Assembly (NCBI RefSeq): GCF_022899355.1
Contig: NZ_JALJCK010000011.1
Location: 124,001-188,000, forward strand
Reading direction: 5' to 3'
Length of the DNA: 64,000 bases
Source of the DNA: Shinella yambaruensis
GTDB taxonomy: Bacteria; Pseudomonadota; Alphaproteobacteria; Rhizobiales; Rhizobiaceae
Notes under the pieces: model-generated
Database searches by the model: none
Seen by the model: only the letters and a program-made list of their open reading frames with translations
Told to the model about the DNA's origin: nothing
Part shown: positions 8,879 through 23,340 of the stretch, one piece after another
Numbering within the stretch: the stretch's first letter is position 1
Layout of the letters: each line of letters starts with the position of its first letter
Position numbers and translations under genes: made by a program

Positions 8879-8918
8879 TTTGACCTGGCGCAAATTCCCG
8901 CGGTGCAAGGCTCCCTAG
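8879..8918 (+). promoter_or_regulatory. FNR/NnrR-type box and -10 element for ubiTUV
   Basis: TTGACCTGGCGCAA (8880-8893) fits TTG-N8-CAA. CTAGGG starts at 8915, its CTAG centred 30 bp from the box centre. With the box at -41.5 the transcript would start near 8928, leaving about 25 bases before ubiT. The arrangement points towards ubiT and not ubiD. Confidence 0.72.
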
Positions 8919-8952
8919 GGTCGGGTATTCGTTTCTGCCGAAGGCCAGCCGC

Positions 8953-9453
8953 ATGCTTCCCCCGCTCCTTGCAAAACCGGTCGATCTCGCGCCCCTCTGG
9001 CTGGTGGAGCGGGTGGCGCGCACCCTGTTTTCCGGCGTGCTGAAGGCCCATCCCGAGCTTTTTGAGCGGCTCGGCGATTATCGCCGCACCCGCTACGGCT
9101 TTTCGCCCGTCGATCTGCCGCTGCATTTCACCGTCGTGCCGGCCATGAAGGCGCTCACCGTCTCGCGCGGCGCGGCGCCCCCTGTCGATGCGCGGATCGA
9201 GGGGCCGCTGGTGCTGCTTCTCGGCCTGCTCGAAGGCCGCTGCGATGCCGATGCGCTGTTCTTCTCGCGCGACCTCTCGGTCACCGGCGACATGGAGGCG
9301 ATGCTGGCGCTGCGCAACGCGCTCGACGACAGCGCCATCGACCTGCCGCGCGAGCTCGGCGCACTGGCCGGCCCGCTCTCGCCGCTCATCGCCGGCACGG
9401 CGCGCTACATCCGCGGCAAGGCGCTCGAAGGAAGGGATGCGACATGGAACTGA
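8953..9453 (+). CDS. ubiT: SCP2-type lipid carrier, UbiT
   Basis: Protein of 166 residues with a sterol-carrier-2 fold. In E. coli, UbiT binds quinone intermediates and is required for ubiquinone synthesis without oxygen. Visible are an N-terminal segment around LWLVERVARTLF, then a body with LPLHFTVVPAMKALTVSRG, VLLLGLLEGRCDADALFFSRDLSVTGD and LRNALDDSAIDLP. The 'RDLSVTGDMEAMLALRNALDD' type of motif is typical of UbiT. It overlaps ubiU by 10 nt and opens the ubiTUV operon. The name rests on this operon context as well as on the fold. Confidence 0.88.
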   Translation: MLPPLLAKPVDLAPLWLVERVARTLFSGVLKAHPELFERLGDYRRTRYGFSPVDLPLHFTVVPAMKALTVSRGAAPPVDARIEGPLVLLLGLLEGRCDADALFFSRDLSVTGDMEAMLALRNALDDSAIDLPRELGALAGPLSPLIAGTARYIRGKALEGRDATWN

Positions 9454-10421
9454 TCTGCCCCGCCGGCACCCCCGCCGCCTTCCGCGAGGCGGTGGAGGCC
9501 GGTGCCGATGCCGTCTATTGCGGCTTTCGCGACGAGACCAATGCCCGCAACTTCCCGGGCCTCAACTTCAGCCGCGAGGAGCTGCGCCAGTCGATCGTGC
9601 TTGCCCGCCGCAAGAAGGTGCAGATCTTCGTCGCGCTCAACACCTTCATGCGGGCGGGCGACGAGGCGCTGTGGTATTCGGCCGCCGATGACGCGGTGGC
9701 GATGGGCGCCGATGCGCTGATCCTCGCCGATTTCGGCCTGATGGCCTATGTCGCGGAAAAATTCCCGCAGCAGCGGCTGCATGTCTCCGTCCAGGCCTCC
9801 GCCTCGAACCCGGAGGCGATCCGCTTCCTCGTCGAGGCGTTCGGGGCAAAACGCGTCGTGCTGCCGCGCGTCCTGACCGTGCAGGACATCGCCCGGCTGA
9901 CGCGGCAGATCGACTGCGAGGTCGAGGTCTTCGCCTTCGGTGGGCTCTGCGTCATGGCGGAGGGGCGCTGCTCGCTCTCCTCCTATGCAACGGGCAAGTC
10001 GCCCAACATGAACGGCGTTTGCTCGCCGGCGAGCCATGTGCGTTACCGGCAGGACGGCGCGGACCTCGTCTCCGAGCTCGGCGCTTACACCATCAACCGC
10101 TTCGGCCCCGGCGAGGCCTCCGGCTATCCGACGCTCTGCAAGGGGCGCTTCGAGATCGGCGACGTCGAGGGGTATGCCTTCGAGGATCCTGTCTCGCTCG
10201 ACGTCATCGACGAGATCGACGCGTTGCGCGCGGCCGGCGTCTCGGCGCTGAAGATCGAAGGGCGCCAGCGCGGCAAGGCCTATGTCGCCGAGGTGGTGTC
10301 GTCGCTCAAGAAGGCGCTCGTCGCCTCACCCGGCGAGCGCGCGGCCCTCGTCGCCCGGCTCCGCGCGATGAGCGAGGGCCAGCGCACGACGACGGGTGCC
10401 TATGACAAACGCTGGCGATAG
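9444..10421 (+). CDS. ubiU: U32-family protein UbiU, O2-independent ubiquinone hydroxylation
   Basis: Peptidase-U32-like Fe-S protein of 325 residues. UbiU forms a complex with UbiV that hydroxylates the ubiquinone ring without O2, with prephenate as oxygen donor in E. coli. The four [4Fe-4S] ligands known in E. coli (C169, C176, C193, C232) fall at exactly the same numbers here: FGGLC169, EGRC176, NGVC193 and TLC232. The U32 core VSVQASASNP is also present. The start at 9444 gives MELICPAGTPAAF, the normal N-terminus. It is coupled to ubiT upstream and 9 nt before ubiV. Confidence 0.95.
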   Translation: MELICPAGTPAAFREAVEAGADAVYCGFRDETNARNFPGLNFSREELRQSIVLARRKKVQIFVALNTFMRAGDEALWYSAADDAVAMGADALILADFGLMAYVAEKFPQQRLHVSVQASASNPEAIRFLVEAFGAKRVVLPRVLTVQDIARLTRQIDCEVEVFAFGGLCVMAEGRCSLSSYATGKSPNMNGVCSPASHVRYRQDGADLVSELGAYTINRFGPGEASGYPTLCKGRFEIGDVEGYAFEDPVSLDVIDEIDALRAAGVSALKIEGRQRGKAYVAEVVSSLKKALVASPGERAALVARLRAMSEGQRTTTGAYDKRWR

Positions 10422-10430
10422 GAGACGGTG

Positions 10431-11366
10431 ATGGCGACGACAGGCAAACCGGCGCTGAGCCTCGGCCCGATCTATTTCCTCTGGGACGGGCCGAAATGGC
10501 GGGACTTCTATTTCCGCATCGCCGACGAGGCGGCGGTCGAGCATGTCACGCTCGGGGAAACGGTCTGTTCCAAGCGCCAGCATTTCAGCGAGCCGCATGT
10601 CGCCGAGGTCGTCGAGCGGCTGGAGGCGGCGGGCAAGCGCGTGACGCTCTCCACGCTCGCCATGGTCACTCTGCCGCGCGAAAGCCGGCATATGCGCGAC
10701 CTGATCGCCGACAGCCTGCATCCGGTGGAGGCAAACGACCTCTCCGCGCTCGGCCTCCTCAAGGGCCGGCCGCATTCGATCGGCCCGCTGGTCAATGTCT
10801 ACAATGCCGCGACGGCCCGCACGCTTGTCGCCCGCGGTGCCGAGAACATCTGTCTGCCGCCGGAGCTGCCGGCCGGCTCCATCCGGCAGATGCTGGAGGC
10901 CATGCCGGATTTCTCCTTAGAGGTCTTCGCCTTCGGCCGCATGCCGCTCGCCATTTCCGCGCGCTGCGCCCATGCGCGCTCCAAGGGGCTGACGAAGGAC
11001 AATTGCCAGTTCGTGTGCGGCGAGGAGCCCGACGGCCTGCCGCTGCGCACGCTCGACCGCCAGTCCTTCCTCGTGCTGAACGGTGTGCAGACCCTGTCGA
11101 ACAGCTGCGTCGTGCTCGTCGATGATCTTGCGCCGCTCGTCGAAGCGGGCCTGTCGCGCGTGCGGCTCTCCCCGCAGGATTGCGACATGGTGAAGGTGGC
11201 AAGCCTCTACCGCGGGGTGCTCGATGGCAGGATCGACGGCGAGGAGGCGATCGCGGACCTGGTGAAGGTCTATCCCGGCGTGCGCTTCTCCAACGGTTTC
11301 CTGCACCGGCAGGAGGGCGCGGCCTGGGTGTCGCGCGGGCGAAACGCGGCGATGGGACGGGACTGA
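10431..11366 (+). CDS. ubiV: U32-family protein UbiV, O2-independent ubiquinone hydroxylation
   Basis: Partner of UbiU, 311 residues. It carries cysteines at C46 (GETVCSK), C179, C192 and C196. The spacing C179-x12-C192-x3-C196 equals that of E. coli UbiV (C180, C193, C197), so a [4Fe-4S] cluster is expected. The ATG at 10431 is chosen over the GTG at 10428 because GGAG at 10421-10424 is then six bases away. It is last in the ubiTUV operon and converges on the hemerythrin-like gene with only six bases between. Confidence 0.94.
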   Translation: MATTGKPALSLGPIYFLWDGPKWRDFYFRIADEAAVEHVTLGETVCSKRQHFSEPHVAEVVERLEAAGKRVTLSTLAMVTLPRESRHMRDLIADSLHPVEANDLSALGLLKGRPHSIGPLVNVYNAATARTLVARGAENICLPPELPAGSIRQMLEAMPDFSLEVFAFGRMPLAISARCAHARSKGLTKDNCQFVCGEEPDGLPLRTLDRQSFLVLNGVQTLSNSCVVLVDDLAPLVEAGLSRVRLSPQDCDMVKVASLYRGVLDGRIDGEEAIADLVKVYPGVRFSNGFLHRQEGAAWVSRGRNAAMGRD

Positions 11367-11372
11367 GGGCGG

Positions 11373-11834
11373 TCAGGCGAAGACGTCGCGCGCCTCCGCC
11401 TTGGCGGCGATGAGCGTCTCCAGGATCATCTGTTCGGAAAAGACATGGCGGCGCAGGCTTTCCTGGAAGCCGCTTATCATGCGCGACACCGTCTCGGGCG
11501 AAAGCCCGCAGCGATCGTCGGCGACAGCCTTCAGCGTCAGCGAGAGCTCCTCGGCGGCGAGCCGGTCGCAGCGGTGCTCCGCCTTCAGGCGCTCGATCGC
11601 CAGGGCGGCGAAGCAGGAGCCGGCATGCCGGTCGAAATCCGGAAAGAGCAGGCGCTCCTCCAGCTCGTGCACCGCCTTGAGGGCGGGCGGAATGGTGTCG
11701 GCGAGCGCGCGCAGTTCACCAGCGGTGCCCGGCTCGCTTGCCGTCTCCTCGAGGCGCAGGCAGAGATCGAGCAGGGCCTGGTGAAGCGTTTCCAGCCGGT
11801 CGATATCGGCGGCGTTGAGGCTCGCATCATCCAT
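11373..11834 (-). CDS. Hemerythrin-like HHE domain protein
   Basis: Helical protein of 153 residues with the scattered His/Glu pattern of hemerythrin-like domains: LETLHQALLD, VHELEERLLFPD, KAEHRCDR and LRRHVFSEQ. Such proteins bind a di-iron centre and in denitrifiers are often encoded beside nor genes, where roles in NO handling or iron-centre repair have been suggested. It follows the 51-residue membrane peptide gene by nine bases and is presumably co-transcribed with it. The exact function is not established by the sequence. Confidence 0.78.
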   Translation of the reverse strand: MDDASLNAADIDRLETLHQALLDLCLRLEETASEPGTAGELRALADTIPPALKAVHELEERLLFPDFDRHAGSCFAALAIERLKAEHRCDRLAAEELSLTLKAVADDRCGLSPETVSRMISGFQESLRRHVFSEQMILETLIAAKAEARDVFA

Positions 11835-11843
11835 CGCCGCCTC

Positions 11844-11999
11844 CTACTGGCCGAAGAAGAGCACGGCGGCGATGACCACCGAGGCGCTGACGGCGGACAG
11901 CGTTCCCGCGCCCTGCAGCACGCCCATGCGGTAGAGCATCAGGGCGAAGCCGGCGATAACCGGAGCGGCGATGAGGAGACCGAACTGTGCATCCGTCAT
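11844..11999 (-). CDS. Small membrane protein next to norE (51 aa)
   Basis: Predicted 51-residue peptide beginning MTDAQFGLLIAAPVIAGFA with two hydrophobic stretches separated by YRMGVLQGAG. The ATG at 11999 follows AAGGACC on the minus strand; the longer frame to 12083 begins in charged, unlikely sequence and overlaps the regulatory palindrome. It is divergent from norE and upstream of the hemerythrin-like gene. I do not recognise a family; its position suggests a minor component of the NO-reductase gene set. Confidence 0.65.
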   Translation of the reverse strand: MTDAQFGLLIAAPVIAGFALMLYRMGVLQGAGTLSAVSASVVIAAVLFFGQ

Positions 12000-12048
12000 G
12001 GGAAGGTCCTTTCCGTTGCCGCCATCATGCCGCGTTGGGCATCCCCGC

Positions 12049-12090
12049 TCTTTGCGCCGGCGCAAAGAAGCCCGCGGCTTCATGGGCTAG
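12049..12090 (+). promoter_or_regulatory. FNR/NnrR-type box and -10 element for norEF
   Basis: A perfect 20-bp palindrome, TCTTTGCGCCGGCGCAAAGA (12049-12068), contains TTG-N8-CAA centred at 12058.5. CTAGGG starts at 12087, its CTAG centred exactly 30 bp away. Placing the box at -41.5 puts the transcript start at about 12100, the first base of norE. A matching -10 element is not seen towards the minus-strand gene. Confidence 0.82.
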
Positions 12091-12099
12091 GGATGGGCC

Positions 12100-12660
12100 A
12101 TGGCGACGATGGACGATATGCGCACGGCGGTTGCGAAGGCGGAGAGCGGGGAGGGCGATTGCCTTCTTCTCTGGATCCTGGTGTGGAGCGAACTTTTGGC
12201 CTTCGGCGCGCTGCTCGTCGCCTTCATGGTGATGACGCTGGTGGACGTCGGAAATGCATCCTTCCTGCGCGCGCATCTCCATCCCGGCCTTGCCGCGCTC
12301 AACACGGTCCTCCTCGTCCTCAGCGGCTGGCAGGCGGCGCTGGCGGTTCGCCGCGGGGCGGATCTTTCGGGCGTTCGCCGTTCCCTCGTCCTTGCGGGCC
12401 TTCTCGGCCTTGCCTTCGCGGCGGTGAAACTCGCCGAATACGGGATGGAGGTCCGCTCCGGCATCGGCGGGGTAGGCACGCTTGCCGAACTCTATTTCCT
12501 CGTCACCGGCTTCCACCTGCTGCACGTCGTCTTCGGCGCGGCCATCCTCTTCCTCGTCGCCTGGCGCCCGTCGCGCAGCAATGTCGTGATGATCGCGACG
12601 CTCTGGCATGCGATCGACCTCGTCTGGCTCGTGATGTTCCCGATCGTCTACCTCACCTGA
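12100..12660 (+). CDS. norE: NorE-like cytochrome c oxidase subunit III family protein
   Basis: Integral membrane protein of 186 residues with about five hydrophobic segments, related to heme-copper oxidase subunit III. NorE is an accessory factor that raises NO reductase activity in Paracoccus and related denitrifiers. Recognisable are LLLWILVWSELLAFGALL near residue 21, the ELYFLVTGFHLLHVVFGA helix and a C-terminal LWHAIDLVWLVMFPIVYL, both helices carrying His. ATGs at 12100, 12109 and 12118 are all possible; the predicted transcript start coincides with the first. norF follows after seven bases. Confidence 0.87.
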   Translation: MATMDDMRTAVAKAESGEGDCLLLWILVWSELLAFGALLVAFMVMTLVDVGNASFLRAHLHPGLAALNTVLLVLSGWQAALAVRRGADLSGVRRSLVLAGLLGLAFAAVKLAEYGMEVRSGIGGVGTLAELYFLVTGFHLLHVVFGAAILFLVAWRPSRSNVVMIATLWHAIDLVWLVMFPIVYLT

Positions 12661-12667
12661 GACTGCC

Positions 12668-12943
12668 ATGACCCGACAGGCCCGCGAACAGTTCATCGCC
12701 ACCCTTGCCATGCTGCTGACGCTCGCCGTCGGCGGCGCCCTCGTCGGTGGGCTCAGCGGTGGGCTTCTGGTGCCGATCACCGCGGTACTGGTCATGGCCT
12801 ATGCCAAGGGTCGTTTCGTCATCCTCGATTTCATGGAATTGCGCGCGAGCCGCAGCGCGCTGCGGCCGGCCCTGCTTGCCTGGCCGGCGTTGCTCCTGTC
12901 GCTGGCGCTTGCCCGTTCGGTCCTCGTCGCGTTCATCGGCTGA
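12668..12943 (+). CDS. norF: NorF-like membrane protein (cytochrome oxidase subunit IV-like)
   Basis: Protein of 91 residues with three hydrophobic helices: LAMLLTLAVGGALVGGLSGG, LVPITAVLVMAYAKGRFVIL and LLAWPALLLSLALARSVLVA. The middle helix, followed by LDFMELR, is typical of the small subunit-IV-like NorF proteins that accompany norE. It is probably co-transcribed with norE and is separated from norC by 157 bases holding another regulatory box and a hairpin. Confidence 0.8.
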   Translation: MTRQAREQFIATLAMLLTLAVGGALVGGLSGGLLVPITAVLVMAYAKGRFVILDFMELRASRSALRPALLAWPALLLSLALARSVLVAFIG

Positions 12944-12956
12944 CGAACCGCCCCGC

Positions 12957-12999
12957 TCTTTGCCAATGCGCAAAGAAGGCTTTTTCCCTCCCGCTAGAA
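12957..12999 (+). promoter_or_regulatory. FNR/NnrR-type box and -10 element for norCBQD
   Basis: TTGCCAATGCGCAA (12960-12973) lies within TCTTTGCCAATGCGCAAAGA. CTAGAA starts at 12994, its CTAG centred 29 bp from the box. The predicted transcript start is near 13008, giving a leader of about 93 bases before norC. Confidence 0.8.
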
Positions 13000-13015
13000 C
13001 AGGGACGTCCCGCAG

Positions 13016-13038
13016 TGCCGGCGAGGGGCTCGCCGGCA
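13016..13038 (+). other. Perfect hairpin in the norC 5' leader
   Basis: TGCCGGCGAG and CTCGCCGGCA form a perfect 10-bp stem around a GGG loop. It lies in the predicted leader between the nor promoter and the norC ATG, without a following U-run, so it looks like an mRNA structural element and not a terminator. A second palindrome, GGGACGTCCC, is at 13002-13011. Confidence 0.6.
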
Positions 13039-13100
13039 GAAAGTCGGCGGGGGTTTTTCGCCGGAGCCATGGAGTTTCCGGCAAGGGAAAGGACCATGGG

Positions 13101-13553
13101 ATGGCAGAGCGCCTTACCAAGACCGGGGCCCGCAACGTCTTCTATGGCGGGTCCATCTTCTTCTTCACGATCTTCGTCGGGCTGACCGCCCATTCCCATT
13201 ACTACATGCGCACGACCGCCACCGACGAGACGACGCTGACCGACAGCGTCGCGCGCGGCAAGCATGTCTGGGAGAAGAACGCCTGTATCAACTGCCACAC
13301 GCTGCTGGGCGAAGGCGCCTATTTCGCGCCCGAGCTCGGCAATGTGTGGAAGCGCTATGGCGGGGCAGACGACCCGGAAGGCGCGCGCGAGGCTTTCAAG
13401 GCCTGGATGGCGGCGCAGCCGAGCGGAGCGGAGGGCCGGCGGCAGATGCCCCAGTTCAACCTCACCGAACAGGAACTCAACGATCTCGCCGATTTCCTCG
13501 AATGGACGAGCAGGATCAACACCCAGAACTGGCCGCCGAACGATGCCGGCTGA
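13101..13553 (+). CDS. norC: Nitric oxide reductase cytochrome c subunit
   Basis: Membrane-anchored c-type cytochrome of 150 residues that passes electrons to NorB during reduction of NO to N2O. One N-terminal anchor helix (FYGGSIFFFTIFVGLTAH) precedes a periplasmic domain with a single heme c site, C62-I-N-C65-H66. The axial Met is likely in RRQMPQF. The ATG at 13101 follows GGGAAAGGA; an open frame upstream is not conserved. It is the first gene of norCBQD. Confidence 0.96.
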   Translation: MAERLTKTGARNVFYGGSIFFFTIFVGLTAHSHYYMRTTATDETTLTDSVARGKHVWEKNACINCHTLLGEGAYFAPELGNVWKRYGGADDPEGAREAFKAWMAAQPSGAEGRRQMPQFNLTEQELNDLADFLEWTSRINTQNWPPNDAG

Positions 13554-13637
13554 AGCCTTTCCGTTCTTACGCAATTCCGGACGCAAAACCGCGTCGCACT
13601 TTTACTGGAATTGCTCCCGGCGTTCAGGAGACAAGAG

Positions 13638-14984
13638 ATGAAATATCAAACGCAAAAGGTCGCCATGCTGTATTTCTACGGCGCGCTCGGCCTGTTCCTC
13701 GCCCAGGTGGCTTTCGGCGTCCTCGCCGGCACGATCTACGTGCTGCCGAACGTGCTCTCCGAGCTGCTGCCCTTCAACATCGTGCGCATGATCCACACCA
13801 ATGCGCTCGTCGTCTGGTTGCTCATGGGCTTCATGGGCGCCACCTACTACATGATTCCGGAGGAGACCGAGACGGAGCTTTACAGTCCTAGACTCGCCGT
13901 CCTGCAGTTCTGGATGTTCTTCGTGGCGGCGGGCCTGACGGTCGTCGGCTACATGTTCCGCATCCATGAGGGCCGCGAATTCCTCGAGCAGACCTTCATC
14001 GCCAAGGTCGGCATCGTCGTCGTCGTCCTGATGTTCCTCTTCAACATCACCATGACCGCGCTGAAGGGCCGCAAGACCACGGTCATCAACATCCTGCTGT
14101 TCGGCCTGTGGGGCCTCGCGCTCTTCTTCCTCTTCGCCTTCTACAACCCGGTCAACCTGGCGCTCGACAAGATGTATTGGTGGTACGTCATCCACCTGTG
14201 GGTCGAGGGCGTCTGGGAGCTGATCATGGCCTCGGTGCTCGCCTTCCTGATGATCAAGCTCAACGGCATCGACCGCGAGGTCGTGGAAAAGTGGCTCTAT
14301 GTCATCGTCGGCCTCGCGCTCTTCTCGGGCATCCTCGGTACGGGCCACCACTATTACTGGATCGGTGCGCCGGGCTACTGGCAGTGGATCGGCTCATTGT
14401 TCTCGACGCTGGAAGTGGCGCCCTTCTTCACCATGGTCATCTTCACCTTCGTCATGACCTGGAAGGCCGGCCGCAACCACCCGAACAAGGCGGCGCTCCT
14501 CTGGTCGATCGGCTGCTCGGTCATGGCCTTCTTCGGCGCCGGCGTCTGGGGCTTCCTGCACACGCTGTCGTCGGTCAACTACTATACCCACGGCACGCAG
14601 GTCACCGCCGCGCACGGGCACCTCGCCTTCTTCGGCGCCTATGTGATGCTGAACCTTGCCATGATGGCCTATGCGATCCCGGAAATCCGCGGCCGCGCGC
14701 CGTTCAACCAGTGGCTCTCCATCGCCAGCTTCTGGATCATGTGCACGGCCATGTCGGTGATGACCTTCGCGCTGACCTTCGCCGGCGTCGTGCAGGTCCA
14801 CCTGCAGCGCGTGCTCGGCGAGGGCTTCATGGACGTCCAGGACCAGCTCGCGCTGTTCTACTGGGTGCGCCTCGGCTCGGGCGTCGTCGTGCTCGTCTCG
14901 GCGCTGATGTTCATCTGGGCGGTGCTCGTGCCCGGCCGCGAGCGTAGCGACAGCCTCACCCGGATGGTCCAGCCGGCCGAGTGA
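13638..14984 (+). CDS. norB: Nitric oxide reductase catalytic subunit (cNOR type)
   Basis: Heme b/b3 and non-heme FeB subunit of 448 residues that reduces 2 NO to N2O at the periplasmic side. About twelve hydrophobic helices are present. Metal-ligand regions include IVRMIHTNALVVWLLM, HLWVEGVWELIMASVLAF (His plus the FeB-region Glu), GTGHHYYWIGAP and VTAAHGHLAFFGAY. It lacks the N-terminal extension of quinol-using qNOR, in line with the separate NorC. The ATG at 13638 follows CAGGAGAC. It is transcribed with norC, norQ and norD. Confidence 0.97.
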   Translation: MKYQTQKVAMLYFYGALGLFLAQVAFGVLAGTIYVLPNVLSELLPFNIVRMIHTNALVVWLLMGFMGATYYMIPEETETELYSPRLAVLQFWMFFVAAGLTVVGYMFRIHEGREFLEQTFIAKVGIVVVVLMFLFNITMTALKGRKTTVINILLFGLWGLALFFLFAFYNPVNLALDKMYWWYVIHLWVEGVWELIMASVLAFLMIKLNGIDREVVEKWLYVIVGLALFSGILGTGHHYYWIGAPGYWQWIGSLFSTLEVAPFFTMVIFTFVMTWKAGRNHPNKAALLWSIGCSVMAFFGAGVWGFLHTLSSVNYYTHGTQVTAAHGHLAFFGAYVMLNLAMMAYAIPEIRGRAPFNQWLSIASFWIMCTAMSVMTFALTFAGVVQVHLQRVLGEGFMDVQDQLALFYWVRLGSGVVVLVSALMFIWAVLVPGRERSDSLTRMVQPAE

Positions 14985-14990
14985 GCGCTG

Positions 14991-15871: not shown

Positions 15872-17770
15872 ATGCTGGATTTCCTGGAGCTTGAGGAAAC
15901 GGTCGGCCGGGCCTGGCACCGGCTCGTCGGCAATACCGGCACCTGGCCGCGCCATCCGGAGCATGCCGTGCGGCTGGAGGATGTCCGGCCGGTGCTCGCC
16001 GTCTGCTTCCGCGGCTTCGGCGGCGAGGGCGCGGTGCAGATCGCGCCCGCCCGCGGGCGCACCTCGGCGCATCGCCTCCGGCTGCGCCAGCGCATGGGGC
16101 TCGGCGAGGAGAAGCTGGTGCAGCCCGGCCGTGACCATGCGACGCTGATGCTGCCCGCCGCGATCGACCTCTTCGCCGATCGCGGCCTCAACCGGGACCT
16201 TTATGTCTGGCTCGCGGCGACGATGGCGGTGATGCCGCTCGATCCGATTGTGGAGGGCGATCCGCTCCAGCGCGACCTTGCCATTCTCCAGCGGGCGGAG
16301 GCGACGGTAAAGGCGGTGCTTTCGGCCTTTCCGGGGCTTGCGCGGCGTTACCGGCGGCTTTCGGCCGCCACGCTTTCGGTGCGCCGCAGCCGGCCGCTTC
16401 CCTCCGTCGAGCGGCATGTGGAGAACCGCATCCTCAGCCTCCTGAGGAAGGGCGCCGGCCTTGCGGACGAGACGCTGCCGGTCATCTTCCCGCACCGGGC
16501 GCCGGCCGGCTATCTGCCGATGCTGCCGGTGCCGCTGTGGCCGGATGCGCTCCTGCGCGAGGAAGGCGAGGGGCGCGGCGAGGAGGACCAGCCGGCGGCG
16601 GGCGGCACGCCCGAGACCCCGGAGACCAGCCGCCATGTCGCGCTGCGCGAAAAGGCCGAGAACCGCAAGAACGAGCGCAGCCCCTTCATTCTCAACCGCT
16701 TCGAAAAGATCCTCGCCATGGCGGAGATGGTCAATGTCGACCGCCCCGGCGACGACAGCGACGACCACGATTCGAGCGCCGCCGACGAACTGGACGACAT
16801 GACGCTCGGCGAGCGCAAGGGCCGCCCGTCCGCCCGTTTCCATTTCGATCTCGACCTGCCGCCGGAGGCGCTCGACCGAACGCGGCTGACCGGCGAGCAC
16901 ACCTATCCCGAATGGGATTTCCGCATCGGCACCTATCTGCCCGACCATTGCCGGGTGCTCGCCTCGCCGGCGCCGGACATGGCCGCCGTGCCCGAGGCCG
17001 ATGCCGACACGAAGAGCCTGATCCGCCGCGTGCGCCGGCAGTTCGAAGTGCTGCGGCCGCGCCATGAAATGCTGCGCGCGCAGCTCGACGGGGCGGAGCT
17101 GGACCTCGATGCCGTGGTGCGCGCCCGCAGCGACCTTGCCGCCGGCGGGCAGGGCAGCGACCGTATCCACCTGATGAGCCGGCCGCAGGCGCACGACCTT
17201 GCCGTCACCATTCTGGTCGACGTCTCGCTTTCGACGGACGCCTGGTTCGACAACCGCCGGGTGCTCGATGTGGAGAAGGAGGCGCTGCTGGTGCTGGCGC
17301 ATGGACTTGCGGCCTGCGGCGACAGCCACTCGATCCTCACCTTCACCTCGCGGCGGCGCTCCTGGGTGCGGGTCGAGACGGTGAAGGATTTCGGCGAGAC
17401 GATGAACCATGCCGTGGAAGCGCGTATCGCGGCGCTGAAGCCGGGTTTCTACACCCGCATCGGCCCGGCGATCCGCCATGCGGCGGCAAGGCTGCGCGAG
17501 CAGCCGAACCGGCGAAAGCTCCTCCTGCTGCTCACCGACGGCAAGCCGAACGACGTCGACCACTATGAGGGCCGCTTCGCTCTGGAGGACAGCCGCCGGG
17601 CGGTGAACGAGGCGCGGCGCACCGGCGTCAGCGTGTTCGGGGTGACGGTCGACCGGGAGGCGCAGGCCTATGTGCCGGCCATCTTCGGCCGCAACGGCTA
17701 TGCCATCGTCAGCAATATCGCTCGGCTGCCTGCGGCGCTGCCGGCGATCTATCGCGGTCTTGTCGGATAG
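15872..17770 (+). CDS. norD: NorD, VWA-domain activation protein of NO reductase
   Basis: Protein of 632 residues, normal for NorD, with a C-terminal von Willebrand A domain starting near residue 445. The MIDAS motif is DVSLS in TILVDVSLSTDAWF, and LLLLTDGKPNDVDHYEG follows. It partners NorQ in maturing NO reductase. The acidic linker near residues 290-310 (DDSDDHDSSAADELDD) is typical. It is last in the nor operon and closed by a strong terminator. Confidence 0.95.
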   Translation: MLDFLELEETVGRAWHRLVGNTGTWPRHPEHAVRLEDVRPVLAVCFRGFGGEGAVQIAPARGRTSAHRLRLRQRMGLGEEKLVQPGRDHATLMLPAAIDLFADRGLNRDLYVWLAATMAVMPLDPIVEGDPLQRDLAILQRAEATVKAVLSAFPGLARRYRRLSAATLSVRRSRPLPSVERHVENRILSLLRKGAGLADETLPVIFPHRAPAGYLPMLPVPLWPDALLREEGEGRGEEDQPAAGGTPETPETSRHVALREKAENRKNERSPFILNRFEKILAMAEMVNVDRPGDDSDDHDSSAADELDDMTLGERKGRPSARFHFDLDLPPEALDRTRLTGEHTYPEWDFRIGTYLPDHCRVLASPAPDMAAVPEADADTKSLIRRVRRQFEVLRPRHEMLRAQLDGAELDLDAVVRARSDLAAGGQGSDRIHLMSRPQAHDLAVTILVDVSLSTDAWFDNRRVLDVEKEALLVLAHGLAACGDSHSILTFTSRRRSWVRVETVKDFGETMNHAVEARIAALKPGFYTRIGPAIRHAAARLREQPNRRKLLLLLTDGKPNDVDHYEGRFALEDSRRAVNEARRTGVSVFGVTVDREAQAYVPAIFGRNGYAIVSNIARLPAALPAIYRGLVG

Positions 17771-17791
17771 AGGCGCAAGATCTGCGAGGAA

Positions 17792-17827
17792 GGGCCCGGC
17801 ATGCCGCACCATGCCGGGCCCTTTTTT
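17792..17827. terminator. Bidirectional terminator between norD and hemN
   Basis: A perfect 12-bp stem, GGGCCCGGCATG with CATGCCGGGCCC around CCGCAC, is followed by TTTTTT. It ends norD on the plus strand and can also serve hemN on the minus strand. Confidence 0.93.
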
Positions 17828-17837
17828 CGTTTGGGTT

Positions 17838-19190
17838 TCAGGCCGCCTTGCTGTGCGTGCGGGCCGACTGGTCGATATAGGCGTCGAAGGCGGCGGCGAC
17901 CGCGCGGATGATGAAGCGGTGGTCCTGCCGCACCGTGACGGTGCCGCCGCGAATGTCGATCGCGCCATCCTCCGCAAGCGCCGCCAGCTTGGCATTGCCG
18001 TTAAGAAGCGGGGCCGCATCGAAGCCGTGCCGCGCGGCGATGCTCGTCACGTCGACGCGGAAATCGCACATCAGGCGCTCGATGATCTCGGCGCGCAACC
18101 GGTCCTCCGCCGTGAGCCGGTAGCCCTTGGCGGTGGCGAGGCGGCCGGAGGCGATGCGCTGGGCATAGAGGCCGGGCGGCACCTCGTTCTGCACGTAGCC
18201 TTCCGCCGTGCGGCCGATCGACGAGGCGCCGAAGCCGATCAGCGTGGTGCAGGCATCCGTCGTATAGCCCTGGAAATTGCGGCGCAGCCGGCCCTGCCGG
18301 GCGGCAACGGCGAGGTCGTCTTCCGGCAGGGCATAATGGTCGAGGCCGATGCGCACATAACCGGCGGCGGCAAGCGTTGCGGCGATCGCCTCGGCCTGTG
18401 CGCTGCGTCGGGCCGCGTCGGGCAGCGCCCGCTCGTCGATCAGCCGCTGGTGCTTCTTGAAGGAGGGGATGTGGGCATAGCCGAAGACGGCGAAACGCTC
18501 CGGCCGCATGCGGATCGCCGCCTGCGCGGTCGCGATGCAGGAAGCGACCGTCTGGTGCGGCAGGCCGTAGATGAGGTCGAAATTGATGCCGCTGATCCCG
18601 GCCTTGCGCAGCCCGGCGGCGGCCTCGGCCGTCTGCGCCTCGCTCTGGATGCGGTTGATCGCCTTCTGCACGACGGGATCGAAGCTCTGCACGCCGAGGC
18701 TCGCACGGGTGACGCCCGCTGCGCCGAGCGCGACCGCCATCTCGGCGGAGAGGGTGCGCGGGTCGATCTCGACGGCGATCTCCGCGCCGCCGGCAAAGGC
18801 GAAGCGGGCGCGCAGGAGGCCGATCAGGTCGCGGAACTCTTCCGGCTGCATGATGGTGGGCGTGCCGCCGCCGAAATGCACATGGCGGATGGTCGGCCGG
18901 CCGCTGATCGTCCCGGAGACGAGGTCGATCTCTTTTCGAAGCATGTCGATATAGTCGAGGATCGGCTCGTCGCGCTGGGTGATTGTCGTGTGGCAGCCGC
19001 AGTACCAGCACATGGAGCGGCAGAAGGGAATGTGCAGGTAGAGCGAGGCATCGGTGCCGGGCCTGATAGCGGCAAGCCAGTCGCCATAGGTGCCGGTGCC
19101 GACGGTCGGCGAAAAGCCCGGCGCCGTCGGATAGCTCGTATAGCGCGGCAGCCGTGCCTCGCCGTATTTTTCGATCAGGGCCTGTTGCAT
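17838..19190 (-). CDS. hemN: Oxygen-independent coproporphyrinogen III dehydrogenase
   Basis: Radical-SAM enzyme of 450 residues that converts coproporphyrinogen III to protoporphyrinogen IX without O2, so heme can be made during denitrification. The cluster motif is C57-x3-C61-x2-C64-x-C66 in PFCRSMCWYCGCH, the true HemN pattern. VHFGGGTPTIM and GLPHQTV are further family motifs. The ATG at 19190 gives MQQALIEKYGEARLPRYTSY; 34 upstream frame codons are not conserved. An FNR-type box and CTAG element lie upstream in the right geometry. Confidence 0.96.
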   Translation of the reverse strand: MQQALIEKYGEARLPRYTSYPTAPGFSPTVGTGTYGDWLAAIRPGTDASLYLHIPFCRSMCWYCGCHTTITQRDEPILDYIDMLRKEIDLVSGTISGRPTIRHVHFGGGTPTIMQPEEFRDLIGLLRARFAFAGGAEIAVEIDPRTLSAEMAVALGAAGVTRASLGVQSFDPVVQKAINRIQSEAQTAEAAAGLRKAGISGINFDLIYGLPHQTVASCIATAQAAIRMRPERFAVFGYAHIPSFKKHQRLIDERALPDAARRSAQAEAIAATLAAAGYVRIGLDHYALPEDDLAVAARQGRLRRNFQGYTTDACTTLIGFGASSIGRTAEGYVQNEVPPGLYAQRIASGRLATAKGYRLTAEDRLRAEIIERLMCDFRVDVTSIAARHGFDAAPLLNGNAKLAALAEDGAIDIRGGTVTVRQDHRFIIRAVAAAFDAYIDQSARTHSKAA

Positions 19191-19228
19191 GGCGCATTCC
19201 TTTGTCCAAGTGGATGAATGGGAGGAGC

Positions 19229-19267
19229 CTAGGGGCCGGGCCGGAGTGCTTCTTTGCGAAAAGCCAA
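19229..19267 (-). promoter_or_regulatory. FNR/NnrR-type box and -10 element for hemN
   Basis: The box at 19254-19267 reads TTGCGAAAAGCCAA on the plus strand, fitting TTG-N8-CAA. CTAG at 19229-19232 is centred 30 bp away in the hemN direction. Predicted start is near 19219, 29 bases before the hemN ATG. Confidence 0.72.
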
Positions 19268-19303
19268 GCAGTGGGACGTCGCGGCCGCGCATTTCCGGAA
19301 TTG

Positions 19304-19343
19304 TTTGCGCAACGTCAAAGTGGCGGGCAGGTCGCGGGGTTAG
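19304..19343 (+). promoter_or_regulatory. FNR/NnrR-type box and -10-like element for the DUF2249 group
   Basis: TTGCGCAACGTCAA (19305-19318) fits TTG-N8-CAA. TTAG at 19340-19343 is centred 30 bp downstream, a weaker version of the CTAG element in the sister promoters. It faces the gene at 19418. Confidence 0.55.
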
Positions 19344-19417
19344 CGTCGGCTGGTTCCGGTCGGTCGGGCCGTGCCTTCCGGAACGGGTTCGGAGCGGCTG
19401 GGACGGAACAGAAAACC

Positions 19418-19696
19418 ATGTCAGACGACCAGGCCAAGTCTTCCATCGATGTCCGCACCATTGCCCCGCGCGAGCGTCATCCGCGCATTTTCGGCATGCT
19501 CGGCGCGCTGCTTCCCGGTAAATCGATGCTGATCACCAGCGACCACGATCCGCGGCCATTGCACTACCAGCTCGAGACGAATTTCCCGGGCCAGTTCGGC
19601 TGGGACTATCTCGAACAGGGACCGGAGGTCTGGCGCGTCGAGATCGACCGGATCGAGGACCGCAGCTGCGATTGCTGCTGCGGCTCGGACCACTAG
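19418..19696 (+). CDS. DUF2249 protein with Cys-rich C-terminus
   Basis: Protein of 92 residues with a DUF2249 fold: DVRTIAPRERHPRIFGMLGA, then PLHYQLETNFPGQFGWDYLEQGP, then WRVEIDR. It ends in a cysteine cluster (SCDCCCGSDH) that could bind a metal. DUF2249 proteins are frequent in denitrification gene groups, but their biochemical role is not known to me. The ATG at 19418 is the first that gives conserved sequence. It is presumably co-transcribed with the next three genes (spacings of 33, 3 and 4 bases). Confidence 0.8.
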   Translation: MSDDQAKSSIDVRTIAPRERHPRIFGMLGALLPGKSMLITSDHDPRPLHYQLETNFPGQFGWDYLEQGPEVWRVEIDRIEDRSCDCCCGSDH

Positions 19697-19729
19697 GCGG
19701 CAGACGGCACACGGCGAAGGGGAAACCTT

Positions 19730-21082
19730 ATGCAGGGCGCGACGCTCTCCCGCTGGACCATGTCCTATTTCGCCCTGGCCTGTCTGATGCTCGTCGCAGG
19801 ACAGGGCCTGATGCTGGCGGGCTACGGCTATCCGGCCGTCGCCGTCAGCGCGCCGGAAACCCTGGTGCTCGTCCATATCCTTGCGATCGGCTGGCTGAGC
19901 CTCCTGATGGCGGGGGCGCTCCTGCAGTTCGTGCCGGTGCTGATCGCCCGTCCGTTGGTCGGCGGGCGGTTCGCGGCGCCTGCCTTGCTGCTCATCGTTG
20001 CCGGGCTCGGCGCGCTGGTCGGCGGCTTCGTGGCGCTGTCCGGCGCCATCGACCTGCCACTCGCGCTCCTGCCCCTCGGGGGCGGATTGCTGCTGGCCGG
20101 TTTCGTCCTCCTCGCCGCCGTCCTCGCCGCCACGCTTCTCGCGGCGCGGCCCCTTCCGCTACCGGCGCGCTTCGTCGCCGTCGGGCTGTCGGCGCTCGTC
20201 GGCGCGGCCCTTGTCGGTTTCGCTTTCACGCTTGCCCTTTCCGGCACCAGCGACAATCTGTTGCTTGTCCGGCTCGTCGCCGACGGCGTGGATTTGCATG
20301 CGGCGCTGGGCCTTGGCGGCTGGCTGAGCGTCACCGCGCTCGGTGTCAGTTACCGGCTGCTCGCCATGTTCCTGCTGGCGCCCGAGGCGGAGCGGCCGAC
20401 GAGCCGCATAGTCTGGTGGGCGGCGAGCCTTGCCATTGGTCTTGTCGCCGCTTGCATTCCGGTTGTCCTTCTCGCCGCCTCCGGTGTGACGGCGCTCTTT
20501 GCTGCGGCCTTCCTTCTGACGCTCGCCGCGGTGCTGCTCTATGGCGGCGACGTCGTGCATCTCTACCGCTCGCGCAAGCGCAAGCAGGCGGAGCTGAACA
20601 TCCGGGCGACGTTCGCTGCCTTTGGCGCACTTCTATTGTCCGTCGCCCTGCTCAATCTGCCTGGCGTCCGTGCGGGCGAGGGCCTTGCGGCGGTCGTCTA
20701 CCTTTTTGTCTTCGGCTGGCTGACGGGGCTGGGGCTTGCCCAGCTTTACAAGATCGTCGCCTTCCTGACATGGTTGGAGGCCTATGGGCCGGTGCTCGGC
20801 CGCGCGCCGGTGCCGCGCGTGCAAGATCTGGTCGATGAAGGACGCGGGCGTGTCCTGTTCTGGTTCTATTACGGCGCGGTGGCGGCGGCCACGCTCGCGC
20901 TTTTCGCGGAGGCTTCCGGCGTTTTTCGCGCGGCGGTCCTCGTGCAGCTGGCCGCGACGCTGGGGTTGATAGGAGAACTCATCCGCGCGCGCCGGCTTTG
21001 CATCGTGCCGAAAGCGCTGCGGGCGCCGGTCGGCATGGTGCGCCCCCATCTCTTCCTGCCTACATTTGTTTCAAGGAGATAA
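19730..21082 (+). CDS. Polytopic membrane protein of the denitrification cluster
   Basis: Protein of 450 residues with about twelve hydrophobic segments and a heme-copper-oxidase- or NnrS-like feel. Conserved-looking His residues sit within helices: LVLVHILAIGWLSLLMAGAL near residue 46 and VDLHAALGLGGWLSVTALG near residue 187. DUF2249 genes lie on both sides, which suggests a role in NO or nitrite metabolism or heme handling. I cannot assign a named function. The start follows GAAGGGGAAACCTT. Confidence 0.75.
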   Translation: MQGATLSRWTMSYFALACLMLVAGQGLMLAGYGYPAVAVSAPETLVLVHILAIGWLSLLMAGALLQFVPVLIARPLVGGRFAAPALLLIVAGLGALVGGFVALSGAIDLPLALLPLGGGLLLAGFVLLAAVLAATLLAARPLPLPARFVAVGLSALVGAALVGFAFTLALSGTSDNLLLVRLVADGVDLHAALGLGGWLSVTALGVSYRLLAMFLLAPEAERPTSRIVWWAASLAIGLVAACIPVVLLAASGVTALFAAAFLLTLAAVLLYGGDVVHLYRSRKRKQAELNIRATFAAFGALLLSVALLNLPGVRAGEGLAAVVYLFVFGWLTGLGLAQLYKIVAFLTWLEAYGPVLGRAPVPRVQDLVDEGRGRVLFWFYYGAVAAATLALFAEASGVFRAAVLVQLAATLGLIGELIRARRLCIVPKALRAPVGMVRPHLFLPTFVSRR

Positions 21083-21085
21083 CCG

Positions 21086-21619
21086 ATGTCCGACGCCTCA
21101 AACGCCATCGCCCCCAAGATTCTCGACGTGCGGCCGATCCTGGAAAGTGGCGGCGAGCCGTTCCAGGCGATCATGGAGGCGGTGCAGTCGCTCGGCCCCG
21201 GGCAGGGGCTCCGGCTCTTCGCCACCTTCCGACCCCAGCCGCTGTTCCGCGTCATGGCGAGTCGCGGCTTCGACCATGAGGCCCATGAGATCGAGGGCGG
21301 CGACTGGGAGGTCCTCTTCACGCCGCAGCAGGTGGTGGCACCCGTCGAAACCTCCGACAATGCGGATCGCCCTGAGACCTGGCCGGATCCCTCGCTTCAT
21401 CTCGATCTAAGCGACCTCGATCCGCCCGAGCCGATGGTCCGCATCCTTGCGGCGGCCGAGACGCTCGGGCCGGGCGAGGTCCTCTTCGCGGTTCTTTCCC
21501 GCGAGCCGCTGTTCCTGTTCCCCGAACTGACGAAGCGCGGCCACCAGTGGGCCGGCAATTTCGACGAGACGGGTTCGGCCTACCGCATCCTCGTGCGGAC
21601 CGGCCGGGCAAAGGCGTGA
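21086..21619 (+). CDS. Tandem DUF2249 protein
   Basis: Protein of 177 residues made of two DUF2249 repeats. Repeat 1 is KILDVRPIL to GGDWEVLFTP, with LGPGQGLRLFATFRPQPLFR. Repeat 2 is LDLSDLDPPEPMVRILAAAE to SAYRILVRTGR, with LGPGEVLFAVLSREPLFLFP. The two LGPG(Q/E) strand motifs make the duplication clear. It starts three bases after the membrane protein stop, with AAGGAG before the ATG, and sits just before the MIP18-like gene. Confidence 0.85.
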   Translation: MSDASNAIAPKILDVRPILESGGEPFQAIMEAVQSLGPGQGLRLFATFRPQPLFRVMASRGFDHEAHEIEGGDWEVLFTPQQVVAPVETSDNADRPETWPDPSLHLDLSDLDPPEPMVRILAAAETLGPGEVLFAVLSREPLFLFPELTKRGHQWAGNFDETGSAYRILVRTGRAKA

Positions 21620-21623
21620 TCCG

Positions 21624-21923
21624 ATGGACGAGGACGAGAAGGCTGCGCTGACCGAGGCCATCCGCAATGCCCTGCGCATGATCATCGACCCGGAGATCGG
21701 CCGCAACATCGTCGATCTCGGCCTGATCTACGAGATCGCGGTGGAGGAGGGCGGCATCGCGCGCATCGCCATGACGACGACGACGCGGGGCTGCCCGGCG
21801 AGCGACTACCTCAAGGATGCCGTGAGCAACTGCGTCTGGTATGTGCCGGGCGTCGAATATGCCGAGGTGCGGCTGACCTACGAGCCGCCCTGGACGCCGG
21901 AGATGATGGCGGTGGAAGGCTAG
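21624..21923 (+). CDS. MIP18/DUF59-family metal-sulfur cluster assembly factor
   Basis: Protein of 99 residues with the DUF59 core: IIDPEIGRNIVDLGLIYEI, then RIAMTTTTRGCPASDYLKDA. The RGCPASDY loop carries the conserved Cys used by Fe-S carrier proteins of this family (PaaD, SufT, MIP18). It is last in the DUF2249 group. Delivery or repair of Fe-S centres exposed to NO is a reasonable inference, not shown by the sequence. Confidence 0.87.
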   Translation: MDEDEKAALTEAIRNALRMIIDPEIGRNIVDLGLIYEIAVEEGGIARIAMTTTTRGCPASDYLKDAVSNCVWYVPGVEYAEVRLTYEPPWTPEMMAVEG

Positions 21924-21928
21924 GCAGA

Positions 21929-21958
21929 AAACGGCCCGGAACTGCTTCCGGGCCGTTT
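21929..21958. terminator. Bidirectional terminator between the DUF59 gene and nnrS
   Basis: A perfect 13-bp inverted repeat, AAACGGCCCGGAA and TTCCGGGCCGTTT around CTGC, lies between two converging genes. The A- and T-rich ends give U-tracts in both directions. Confidence 0.92.
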
Positions 21959-21963
21959 CGCGT

Positions 21964-23178
21964 TCAGAGCGGTGCGCGGTGCTTGCGCGCGAGGATCGGC
22001 GCATATTCCAGGCAGAAGAGCCCAAAGGCCGCGATCCAGAGAAGCCCGGAAGCGGCGTAGACGAGGTGGCTCGCCTCGGGAAAGACCTCGCCGAGCGGGC
22101 GGATGAGCGCGCAGAGGATCAGTGCGCCATAGGCGGTGACGGTGAGGCGCGAGGCCTGCAATGGGCGGCCGGTATGGCCGAGGCTCGCCCGTGTCATGAC
22201 GGCCAGCATCATGCAGGCGATGGCGCCGACCGAGAGAAGATGCAGCACGGAGCGCTCCTCCAGAAAACCGAGCGCGCTGAGGGCGATGGACGCGAGGCCG
22301 AGCGGCACGAAGGCATAGGCGACGTGGAGGACGACGAGCAGCTTTTCCGGCCGCGTCGTCCAGCCACGCCAGCGGTGGAGGCGGATGCAGTGCAGGAGGG
22401 CGGCGGCCAGGCCGAGGCCGGCGGTGCCGGGGTGCTCGGGCGCGAGCGTCCAGGCGGTGAGCGCGCCGACGCCGGCAAGGATGGCGACCATGTCGAAGCG
22501 GTTGTAGGGCACGGGAAAATCCGTGCGGCCGGACTTGTTGAGCCAGTTGCGGGTGAAGCTCGGCAGGATGCGGCCGCCGACGATCATCACCAGCACGACA
22601 TAGGCGGCGACGGCAAGGCGGATCGCCATGTGGTCGTGCTCGCCGCCGATGGCCGCCACATGGAAGATGCTGTTGGCGACCGACAAGGCGAGGAGGCCGC
22701 CGAGTACCTTCAGGTCCTTCCACTTGCGCCCCGCCACGACCTCGCGCGTGCAGATGGCAAGCAGCGCCGGCAGGAAGAGCCCGTCGATGACGGCCGCCGC
22801 GGTCACGCCGATCGTGTCTGGCACGAGCAGTGCGATACGTCCGGCGCACCAGAGTGCAAACAGCGCGAAGAGCGGCCAGCCGGAGACGGGCAGGCGCCCG
22901 GTCCAGTTCGGCACCGCCGTCAGCAGGAAACCGGCGAGCACGGCGGAGGCGAAGCCGAACAGCATCTCATGGGCGTGCCAGTTGGGCGCGCCGTAATCGC
23001 CCCCAAGCTCGATATGCCCGGTGATCGCTGCGATCCACAATGTCATGGCGGCGACCGCCCACAGGCCGGCGCCGAGGAAGAACGGCCGGAAGCCATAGGA
23101 AAACAACACCGGGCCGGTGCGGGAAAGGCCGCGGGGAACGGCGCGGCTGATGCGCGTTGCGGGTTGGCTTGCGCTCAT
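21964..23178 (-). CDS. nnrS: NnrS family heme-copper membrane protein
   Basis: Polytopic protein of 404 residues with about twelve helices. NnrS is a heme- and copper-containing membrane protein linked to NO stress relief in denitrifiers. Family motifs are [15 protein letters not shown] near residue 27, [20 protein letters not shown] near residue 66, NIxH-type [14 protein letters not shown], and [17 protein letters not shown]. It lies divergent to nirK. The box at 23237-23250 with CTAG at 23212-23215 faces this gene. Confidence 0.95.
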
Positions 23179-23211
23179 TTGGATCTGCTCCTTCGCATTT
23201 GTCAGCTCTTT

Positions 23212-23250
23212 CTAGGGCACCCGCGGGGCTCTTTCTTTGCGAGATGGCAA
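23212..23250 (-). promoter_or_regulatory. FNR/NnrR-type box and -10 element for nnrS
   Basis: The box is TTGCGAGATGGCAA (23237-23250, plus-strand reading) within TCTTTGCGAGATGGCAAAGA. CTAG at 23212-23215 is centred 30 bp away on the nnrS side and reads CTAGAA on the minus strand. Predicted start is near 23202. Confidence 0.8.
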
Positions 23251-23298
23251 AGAGCAAATCAGCATCTGCCAAAATGCCGCAGCGGCCGGAAAGACCTG

Positions 23299-23340
23299 TT
23301 TGTCCCATCACAAAGAGGCCGGCGCGAATGCTCCTAGAAC
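23299..23340 (+). promoter_or_regulatory. FNR/NnrR-type box and -10 element for nirK
   Basis: TTGTCCCATCACAA (23300-23313) fits TTG-N8-CAA, although its inner half-sites are less symmetric. CTAGAACAG starts at 23334, its CTAG centred 29 bp from the box. The same nine bases and the same spacing occur before norC. Predicted start is near 23348, 43 bases before nirK. Confidence 0.75.

Follow-up and report, generated by a model that had tools for sequence, protein, structure and literature searches.

A shared box-to-CTAG geometry at seven probable class II promoters in the denitrification block of Shinella yambaruensis

The denitrification block of Shinella yambaruensis raises the question of whether a palindromic TTG-N8-CAA box, repeatedly paired with a CTAG word, marks one set of activator-dependent promoters and, if so, which regulator and which −10 element they employ. 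Within the window (the whole 64,000-nucleotide stretch analysed here), such a box is accompanied by CTAG at six of seven denitrification-block promoters and by TTAG at the other, the centres lying 29 or 30 bp apart in the direction of the gene. All seven boxes had been claimed in the initial annotation, and all were found again at the same positions: the CTAG centre is at +30 for ubiT and norE, +29 for norC and nirK, and −30 for hemN and nnrS, and the TTAG centre is at +30 for the DUF2249 gene. Escherichia coli FNR activates class II promoters from a box centred at −41.5 ± 1, overlapping the −35 region, and the features can be read in the same way:

8880..8893, + strand: NnrR-type box, ubiT promoter, TTGACCTGGCGCAA (pattern search)
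8915..8918, + strand: predicted −10 CTAG, ubiT, 30 bp from box; predicted start 8928, 25-nt leader, ATG 8953
12052..12065, + strand: NnrR-type box, norE promoter, TTGCGCCGGCGCAA; AGA outward on both flanks
12087..12090, + strand: predicted −10 CTAG, norE, 30 bp from box; predicted start 12100, the A of the norE ATG
12960..12973, + strand: NnrR-type box, norC promoter, TTGCCAATGCGCAA (pattern search)
12994..12997, + strand: predicted −10 CTAG, norC, 29 bp from box; predicted start 13007, ATG 13101
19254..19267, − strand: NnrR-type box, hemN promoter (pattern search)
19229..19232, − strand: predicted −10 CTAG, hemN, 30 bp from box; predicted start 19219
19305..19318, + strand: NnrR-type box, DUF2249-gene promoter (pattern search)
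19340..19343, + strand: predicted −10 TTAG, DUF2249 gene, 30 bp from box; predicted start 19353, ATG 19418
23237..23250, − strand: NnrR-type box, nnrS promoter (pattern search)
23212..23215, − strand: predicted −10 CTAG, nnrS, 30 bp from box; predicted start 23202, ATG 23178
23300..23313, + strand: NnrR-type box, nirK promoter, TTGTCCCATCACAA (pattern search)
23334..23337, + strand: predicted −10 CTAG, nirK, 29 bp from box; predicted start 23347, ATG 23391
25657..26352, + strand: CRP/FNR-family regulator, likely NnrR; cNMP-binding fold and Crp helix-turn-helix, recognition helix TLHTVSR

UbiT, HemN and NirK, like UbiU and UbiV, score above the NCBIfam cut-offs; the NnrS and DUF2249 proteins were identified by Pfam, NorC has a cytochrome c domain match and NorE (12100..12660, + strand) matches the COX3 family. 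The norB product matched only cytochrome oxidase models, all below cut-off; the names norB, norE and norC are ones that we assume from general knowledge and gene order.

A four-letter word could fall beside a box by accident, or be carried there by a repeat, and the genome does contain a dispersed repeat that mimics the box and has a CTAG further downstream. This repeat sequence, however, is in none of the seven window boxes, and the six box-CTAG pairs of the window compare with a mean of 0.027 and a maximum of 1 in 300 first-order Markov sequences. CTAG itself occurs 16 times in the window against 55 expected from its trinucleotides, with six of the 16 at 29 or 30 bp from a box; the other six of the 13 window boxes have no CTAG within 60 bp. 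Moreover, in 80 related NorB-bearing loci (non-independent samples), the 1433 oriented boxes have CTAG 109 times at 30 bp, 47 times at 29 bp and 1.16 times per other offset, so that its position is kept at exactly two offsets. We regard an origin of the CTAG words by chance or as a repeat by-product as exceedingly improbable.

A search of the whole genome (6.87 Mb) found seven pairs at 30 bp and eight at 29 bp, six of these 15 inside the window. Twenty other offsets combined gave 20 matches, about one per control offset, and eight or nine of these, by reading, are the one dispersed repeat. These offsets served as the control because the reversed pattern reads GATC for CTAG and is not counted as a CTAG control; its matches numbered 18, 2 and 145 in the three genome searches (the two for spacings of 30 or 29 bp, then the 20 other offsets). 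In this genome-wide scan, which had been proposed as a check, the 29 and 30 bp spacings are enriched over other offsets, but they are not exclusive to the NnrR regulon. The pair also occurs at an FnrL-like gene, at a universal stress protein gene, at a site some 490 bp ahead of a phosphoketolase gene and at other FixK/FNR-type sites. Two of the 15 look accidental: one is on contig C13, and one lies within a different open reading frame, 136 bp ahead of ccmE. Hence the regularity does not give "both the regulon and the direction" of every promoter, as had been suggested; direction is readable from the −10, but the pair alone does not define the NnrR regulon. Nor is seven a closed number: all seven box and −10 pairs exist, but they form a lower bound, since nosR, outside the window, has an eighth predicted promoter with a spacing of 29 bp (NosR scores 810 bits against a model cut-off of 1000), and the box of norE may in relatives control the hemerythrin operon as well. 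Around the napA start and upstream of it, 3.2 kb in all, there is one box, and no TA follows it at 29 or 30 bp in the napA direction.

The class II interpretation is well supported by comparison. Among 374 promoters of the related loci, chosen solely by a TA at 29 or 30 bp (−12/−11), C is found at −13 with a frequency of.66 (.25 background before TA) and G at −10 with.64 (.25 background after TA); T at −10, as in GCTATA, has a frequency of.13, and T at −7 reaches.37. The predicted +1 is a purine in.70 overall, an excess that agrees with the predicted starts but is uneven, with a range by gene from.49 (norE) to.82 (the DUF2249 gene). The G−10 bias is weaker at norE (.54) and hemN (.53), and the nirK promoters of relatives do not show it (12 of 56). 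The norC spacing is nearly fixed, at 29 bp in 70 of the 72 norC promoters with TA at 29 or 30 bp, and all 47 ubiT-bearing sequences have a box within 350 bp upstream. We therefore consider it very probable, from sequence comparison, that the seven are class II promoters of one NO/anaerobic regulon, with NnrR the most likely activator. A CRP/FNR-family dimer, most likely the product of 25657–26352, would bind TTG-N8-CAA at −41.5 (ubiT, norE, hemN, the DUF2249 gene and nnrS) or −40.5 (norC and nirK), overlap or replace the −35 element and place sigma-70 RNA polymerase on a −10 core of C−13, T−12, A−11 and G−10 (T−13 at the DUF2249 gene). The G for T at −10 and the poor T−7 would give weak basal firing, and hence activator dependence.

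How foreign is this −10 element? The initial annotation set CTAG against the usual TATAAT. The G at −10 is indeed unusual, but the gap from the local norm is smaller than stated: in the available parts of two studies, the Bradyrhizobium japonicum RpoD-like −10 is GCTATA, with T at −10 (PMC4842269), and more than 60% of alphaproteobacterial sigma-70 −10 elements are without T−7, the distance from the end of the −10 to the start being most often 6 bp (PMC8407463). Since the alphaproteobacterial −10 reads GCTATA, mostly without T−7, it is mainly G−10 that stands out, and, judged by its letters, CTAG is a −10 of the alphaproteobacterial kind in which G takes the place of the usual T, not a foreign element. 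The contrast with housekeeping promoters rests on this published consensus, because our generic control (TTGAC, CTTGAC, TTGACA, TTGCCA or TTGAA followed 15–19 bp on by six YTAN words, in the 80 loci) showed no promoter signal.

The CTA common to CTAG and GCTATA also invites the idea that CTAG is a −10 word in general use by sigma-70 in this order and unconnected with FNR-family activation. Outside the window, 19 matches in this genome with CTA at 29 or 30 bp divide into six CTAG, eight CTAT, four CTAC and one CTAA (part of this being chance, as the reversed control of one of these searches had 15 matches), and an exact FixK2-type box, taken with the −10 disregarded, was read in 50 places, of which 15 have TA at 29 or 30 bp, in six cases as CTAG. 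The T at −10 of the published consensus argues against this idea, as does the excess of CTAT over CTAG at strict TTGATN4ATCAA boxes in 41 genomes, unlike NnrR-type boxes (from reading a list in which many rows are orthologues), and we find it doubtful. We think it slightly less likely still that the architecture is as described but that FixK/FnrN, responding to oxygen, is the main activator rather than NO-responsive NnrR, or that both share the boxes. The FnrL-like gene's own promoter and FixK/FNR-type boxes elsewhere in the genome do have the same box-CTAG geometry, and FixK2 and NnrR have common targets in Bradyrhizobium diazoefficiens (PMC6710368, in the part available). Against this, the FixK/FnrN-type half-site TTGAT occurs in none of the 14 half-sites, whereas TTGCG, which matches the NnrR consensus, occurs in seven, and the candidate NnrR gene lies in the block itself, adjoining nirK and nirV.

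NnrR accordingly remains our preferred activator, the name being a likely one given by locus, fold and helix; an NnrR model was absent from the NCBIfam matches of this protein. An [LIV]HTVSR helix is present in 31 of 34 tblastn matches to the regulator, which reads LHTVSR where this genome's FnrL-like protein reads IETVSR. The published consensus, ctTTGcgnnnncgCAAag, found upstream of nir, nor, nos and nnrS (Rodionov et al. 2005, PMC1274295, main text), fits the boxes and their flanking AGA: TTG and CAA occur in all seven and at least one TTGCG half-site in six. The window promoters precede nir, nor, nnrS and NO-linked genes, as in the NnrR regulon, with nos elsewhere in the genome. Six of the seven boxes have a flanking AGA on one or both sides, five of them on the gene side; the DUF2249-gene box has none, and the ubiT box has its AGA on the side away from the gene. 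AGA was rejected as a mark of promoter direction: at ubiT it faces the ubiD side. Of 41 distinct boxes preceding ubiD, 35 have an AGA that points to ubiD, and none of those 35 has CTAN, TTAN or ATAN at 29 or 30 bp on that side. A family-wide scan with the AGA-extended pattern matched 30 of 121 genomes; the pattern is weak outside denitrifiers, with 45 matches listed against 30 for the reversed (GATC) control.

The type of switch is already known. In the accessible portions of the literature, Sphingopyxis Fnr boxes lie mostly at −40.5 to −42.5, overlapping the −35, with ubiT as a target at −40.5 (PMC7713065); the Shinella promoters, with predicted starts, differ in a CTAG rather than TATAAT-like −10 core. 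The NnrR regulon (PMC1274295) has the same ctTTGcgnnnncgCAAag box and an FNR-family NO-responsive activator, to which Shinella would add the −10 geometry and three genes, ubiT, hemN and the DUF2249 gene; the main text of that paper contains no CTAG, and its available passages give no −10 word or box-to-start spacing. For the Bradyrhizobium FixK2 promoters (PMC5582078, PMC6710368, both in part), the likeness is a 14-bp palindrome with a B. diazoefficiens nosR start (TSS1) 40.5 bp from its axis; a second nosR start lies at 67.5 bp, and one box can serve the divergent nnrS/nnrR. Their box, TTGA/C-N6-T/GCAA, is unlike those of Shinella, and B. japonicum norC P1 is reported to start 45 bp downstream of the FixK2 box, not 40.5 (PMC4064962, as excerpted); this distance and the second nosR start speak against the class II reading. 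A search of 297 genomes of the order with the exact nosR box of B. diazoefficiens, TTGATCCAGCGCAA, listed 81 places. In the 50 that were read, no NosR was recognised among the printed open reading frame beginnings, judged without a family search, and several places had no printed frame.

What look like new details are the shared CTAG and the predicted start of norE on its own ATG. Perhaps Hyphomicrobiales FNR-type promoters have their own −10, CTAG, its G−10 selected as a signal of activator dependence, together with a spacing set gene by gene (29 bp at norC and nosR, 30 bp at accessory genes), and perhaps NO switches a leaderless norE message that does without the usual route of ribosome loading; this is a tentative proposal. 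With the geometry itself, one can read from sequence where denitrification and anaerobic promoters lie, which way they point and where they probably start in GC-rich alphaproteobacteria, whose −10 elements are not easily seen: for B. diazoefficiens nosR, the section available reports no conserved −10 (PMC5582078). That G−10 keeps promoters silent without activator is a testable idea.

A second testable idea is leaderless translation, under NO, of norE, a nitric oxide reductase accessory gene. Because the predicted start falls on the A of the ATG at 12100, the norE message should be leaderless. Of 62 promoter-called sequences (80 have the gene), 30 place the norE ATG no more than 1 nt from the predicted start, and a Shine-Dalgarno word (AGGA, GGAG or GAGG 5–15 nt upstream, in the DNA) is found in three of these 30 (L040, L046 and L049) and not in the window. 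B. japonicum leaderless mRNAs (PMC4842269, in part) have the start codon at the transcript start, as is predicted for norE; their motif is TGnTA, whereas the norE −10 is CTAG without TGn, in an activator-type promoter. A leaderless hemN (7 of 47) was set aside, since all seven also have an in-frame ATG further on, preceded by a Shine-Dalgarno word.

The denitrification block of the window consists of the following (norB, norF, norQ, norD and nirV are presumed identities, assigned from position):

ubiT-ubiU-ubiV and a hemerythrin gene
norE-norF-norC-norB-norQ-norD
hemN, two DUF2249 genes, nnrS, nirK, nirV and a CRP/FNR regulator gene
19730-21082, + strand, a 450-aa protein between the DUF2249 genes

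The window and Shinella granuli DSM 18401 have the same NorB protein (100% identity) and pair in the norB DNA tree (96% identity). The 450-aa protein had no family match in Pfam or NCBIfam; of 81 sequences searched by tblastn (window counted), 47 have a match to it.

The initial annotation placed seven TTG-N8-CAA boxes, each with a CTAG (TTAG once) at a fixed distance, before ubiT, norE, norC, hemN, a DUF2249 gene, nnrS and nirK, and re-mapping bore out every position. These are seven of the 13 such boxes in the window, with YTAG centred 29 or 30 bp from the box centre; the remaining six have no CTAG inside 60 bp. CTAG is scarce here, with 16 copies in 64 kb. Six of them belong to box-CTAG pairs, whereas 300 first-order Markov sequences gave a mean of 0.027 pairs and a maximum of 1. 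Five of the seven boxes carry AGA on the gene side; at ubiT it lies on the opposite side and at the DUF2249 gene on neither.

The arrangement is conserved in 80 NorB-bearing loci, the best 80 of 440 relatives. Of the 1433 distinct, oriented boxes taken from them, 109 have the centre of a CTAG 30 bp away and 47 have it 29 bp away, against an average of 1.16 at any other offset.

Words among the 1433 boxes: count at 30, at 29, per other offset
CTAT: 47, 25, 2.56
TTAG: 42, 16, 1.10
CTAA: 28, 15, 0.86
ATAG: 23, 23, 2.38
CTAC: 17, 9, 1.75

TA by gene (80 loci plus window; distinct boxes within 350 bp upstream, misses including boxes of divergent neighbours): count at 30, at 29, boxes
ubiT: 38, 7, 48
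norE: 55, 10, 93
norC: 2, 70, 81
hemN: 37, 8, 103
DUF2249 gene: 60, 2, 120
nnrS: 28, 1, 83
nirK: 22, 34, 108 (split between both spacings)

The norC spacing of 29 is kept in Agrobacterium, Aminobacter/Mesorhizobium, Brucella/Ochrobactrum, Shinella, Sinorhizobium/Ensifer and other Rhizobium-like loci; both Bosea loci have 30. The second strong word in these boxes is AGAA immediately behind the box (231 against 9.8), part of the NnrR consensus ctTTGcgnnnncgCAAag in the accessible part of PMC1274295. AGAA does not indicate direction.

With CTAG placed at -13 to -10, 374 promoters selected solely for TA have C-13 at.66, G-10 at.64, A-9 at.46, T-7 at.37 and a purine at +1 at.70; the background is G.25 and T.34 after TA, and C.25 before it. 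By gene, G-10 is.87 for ubiT,.83 norC,.82 DUF2249,.66 nnrS,.54 norE,.53 hemN and.21 nirK, which in relatives therefore stands outside the G-10 rule; the +1 purine is.49 for norE,.56 for ubiT and.67-.82 elsewhere. Given these frequencies, the lack of T-7 in >60% of published alphaproteobacterial promoters (PMC8407463) and GCTATA among B. japonicum RpoD-like motifs (PMC4842269), both as described in the accessible parts of those papers, the CTAG element reads as a putative alphaproteobacterial -10 carrying G at -10.

Among the papers listed by a search of non-subscription literature, none deals with a CTAG -10 element of the NnrR regulon or with a leaderless norE. Two papers came up for NnrR together with CTAG, one of them the IscB structure paper PMC9640706. 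CTAG is absent from the main texts of PMC1274295, PMC6710368, PMC5582078, PMC3616915 and PMC4842269, and in PMC9549626, the second paper with both words, it is the gene ctaG.

The genome-wide scan proposed in the initial annotation found the box-CTAG pair 15 times at 29/30 in the 6.87-Mb genome, against 20 matches over 20 control offsets, of which 8 or 9 are, by reading of the matches, one repeat. Nine of the 15 lie outside the window:

nosR, box at contig position C32:282440, CTAG at 29 (NosR model 810 bits, cut-off 1000), followed by nosZ
an FnrL-like gene (222 bits, cut-off 300)
a DUF465 gene
a universal stress protein gene
a LysE-like gene (below the Pfam cut-off)
a phasin-like gene (below the Pfam cut-off)
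a site on contig C10, followed by a short ORF and, ~490 bp from the site, by a phosphoketolase gene
136 bp upstream of ccmE, within another ORF
contig C13, before an ORF without family match

TTGM-N6-KCAA boxes with CTA alone matched 23 times and the reversed control 15 times, which makes many of the 23 chance matches. Strict TTGATN4ATCAA with YTAD at 29/30 occurs in 37 of 41 genomes (reversed control 3 in total); behind these boxes CTAG is, by reading of the matches, rarer than CTAT. A dispersed repeat of the genome (TTGCGTNAAAACAAAGAG..., as in sequences L024, L027 and L031) imitates a box plus AGA and was a source of false matches. A pseudoazurin gene (locus L020, G000:C2:220612) has the box TTGATTAAAGTCAA with CTAC at 30.

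The recognition helix of the window regulator is TLHTVSR, [LIV]HTVSR being kept in 31 of its 34 tblastn matches; the FnrL-like protein of the same genome has TIETVSR. Helix residues at that place in CRP/FNR proteins are tied to half-site bases in the accessible part of PMC1274295, and the E-to-H change may be relevant here.

If CTAG occupies -13 to -10, norE transcription is predicted to start at 12100, on the A of its ATG. Among 80 sequences with norE (window included), a promoter was called in 62. In 30 of these an in-frame ATG lies no more than 1 nt from the predicted start; 23 have a leader containing a Shine-Dalgarno-like word, and nine show neither pattern. Only three of the 30 putative leaderless genes, which are spread over Brucellaceae, Phyllobacteriaceae and Rhizobiaceae, have such a word 5-15 nt upstream in the DNA. 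Mapped on the norB tree, the 53 classed sequences (the nine left out) need three changes of start type, two forced by well-supported branches. In the same survey an ATG at the predicted start was found in none of the ubiT, nnrS, nirK or norC promoters, in 1/61 for the DUF2249 gene and in 7/47 for hemN, where all seven have an alternative start.

Across the 80 loci and the window, 34 boxes have YTA at 29/30 on both flanks, and 22 of them are assigned by position to the stretch between norE and the hemerythrin gene. In the direction of hemerythrin, CTAN, TTAN or ATAN stands at 29/30 in 18 of 61 distinct boxes. The window norE box has GCATGATGG, without TA, on that side. A 51-aa membrane-like ORF (11844-11999, - strand; no NCBIfam match) lies immediately upstream of the hemerythrin gene, oriented away from the norE box. 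The palindromic norE-hemerythrin two-sided box, assigned by position, occurs in Sinorhizobium/Ensifer, Agrobacterium and some others (locus and position L051:8393, L055:8452, L058:8439 and others). In Rhizobium-like loci (L087:20992, L094:20994 and six others) a second two-sided box, with YTA at 29/30 both ways, lies ~10 kb downstream of norB.
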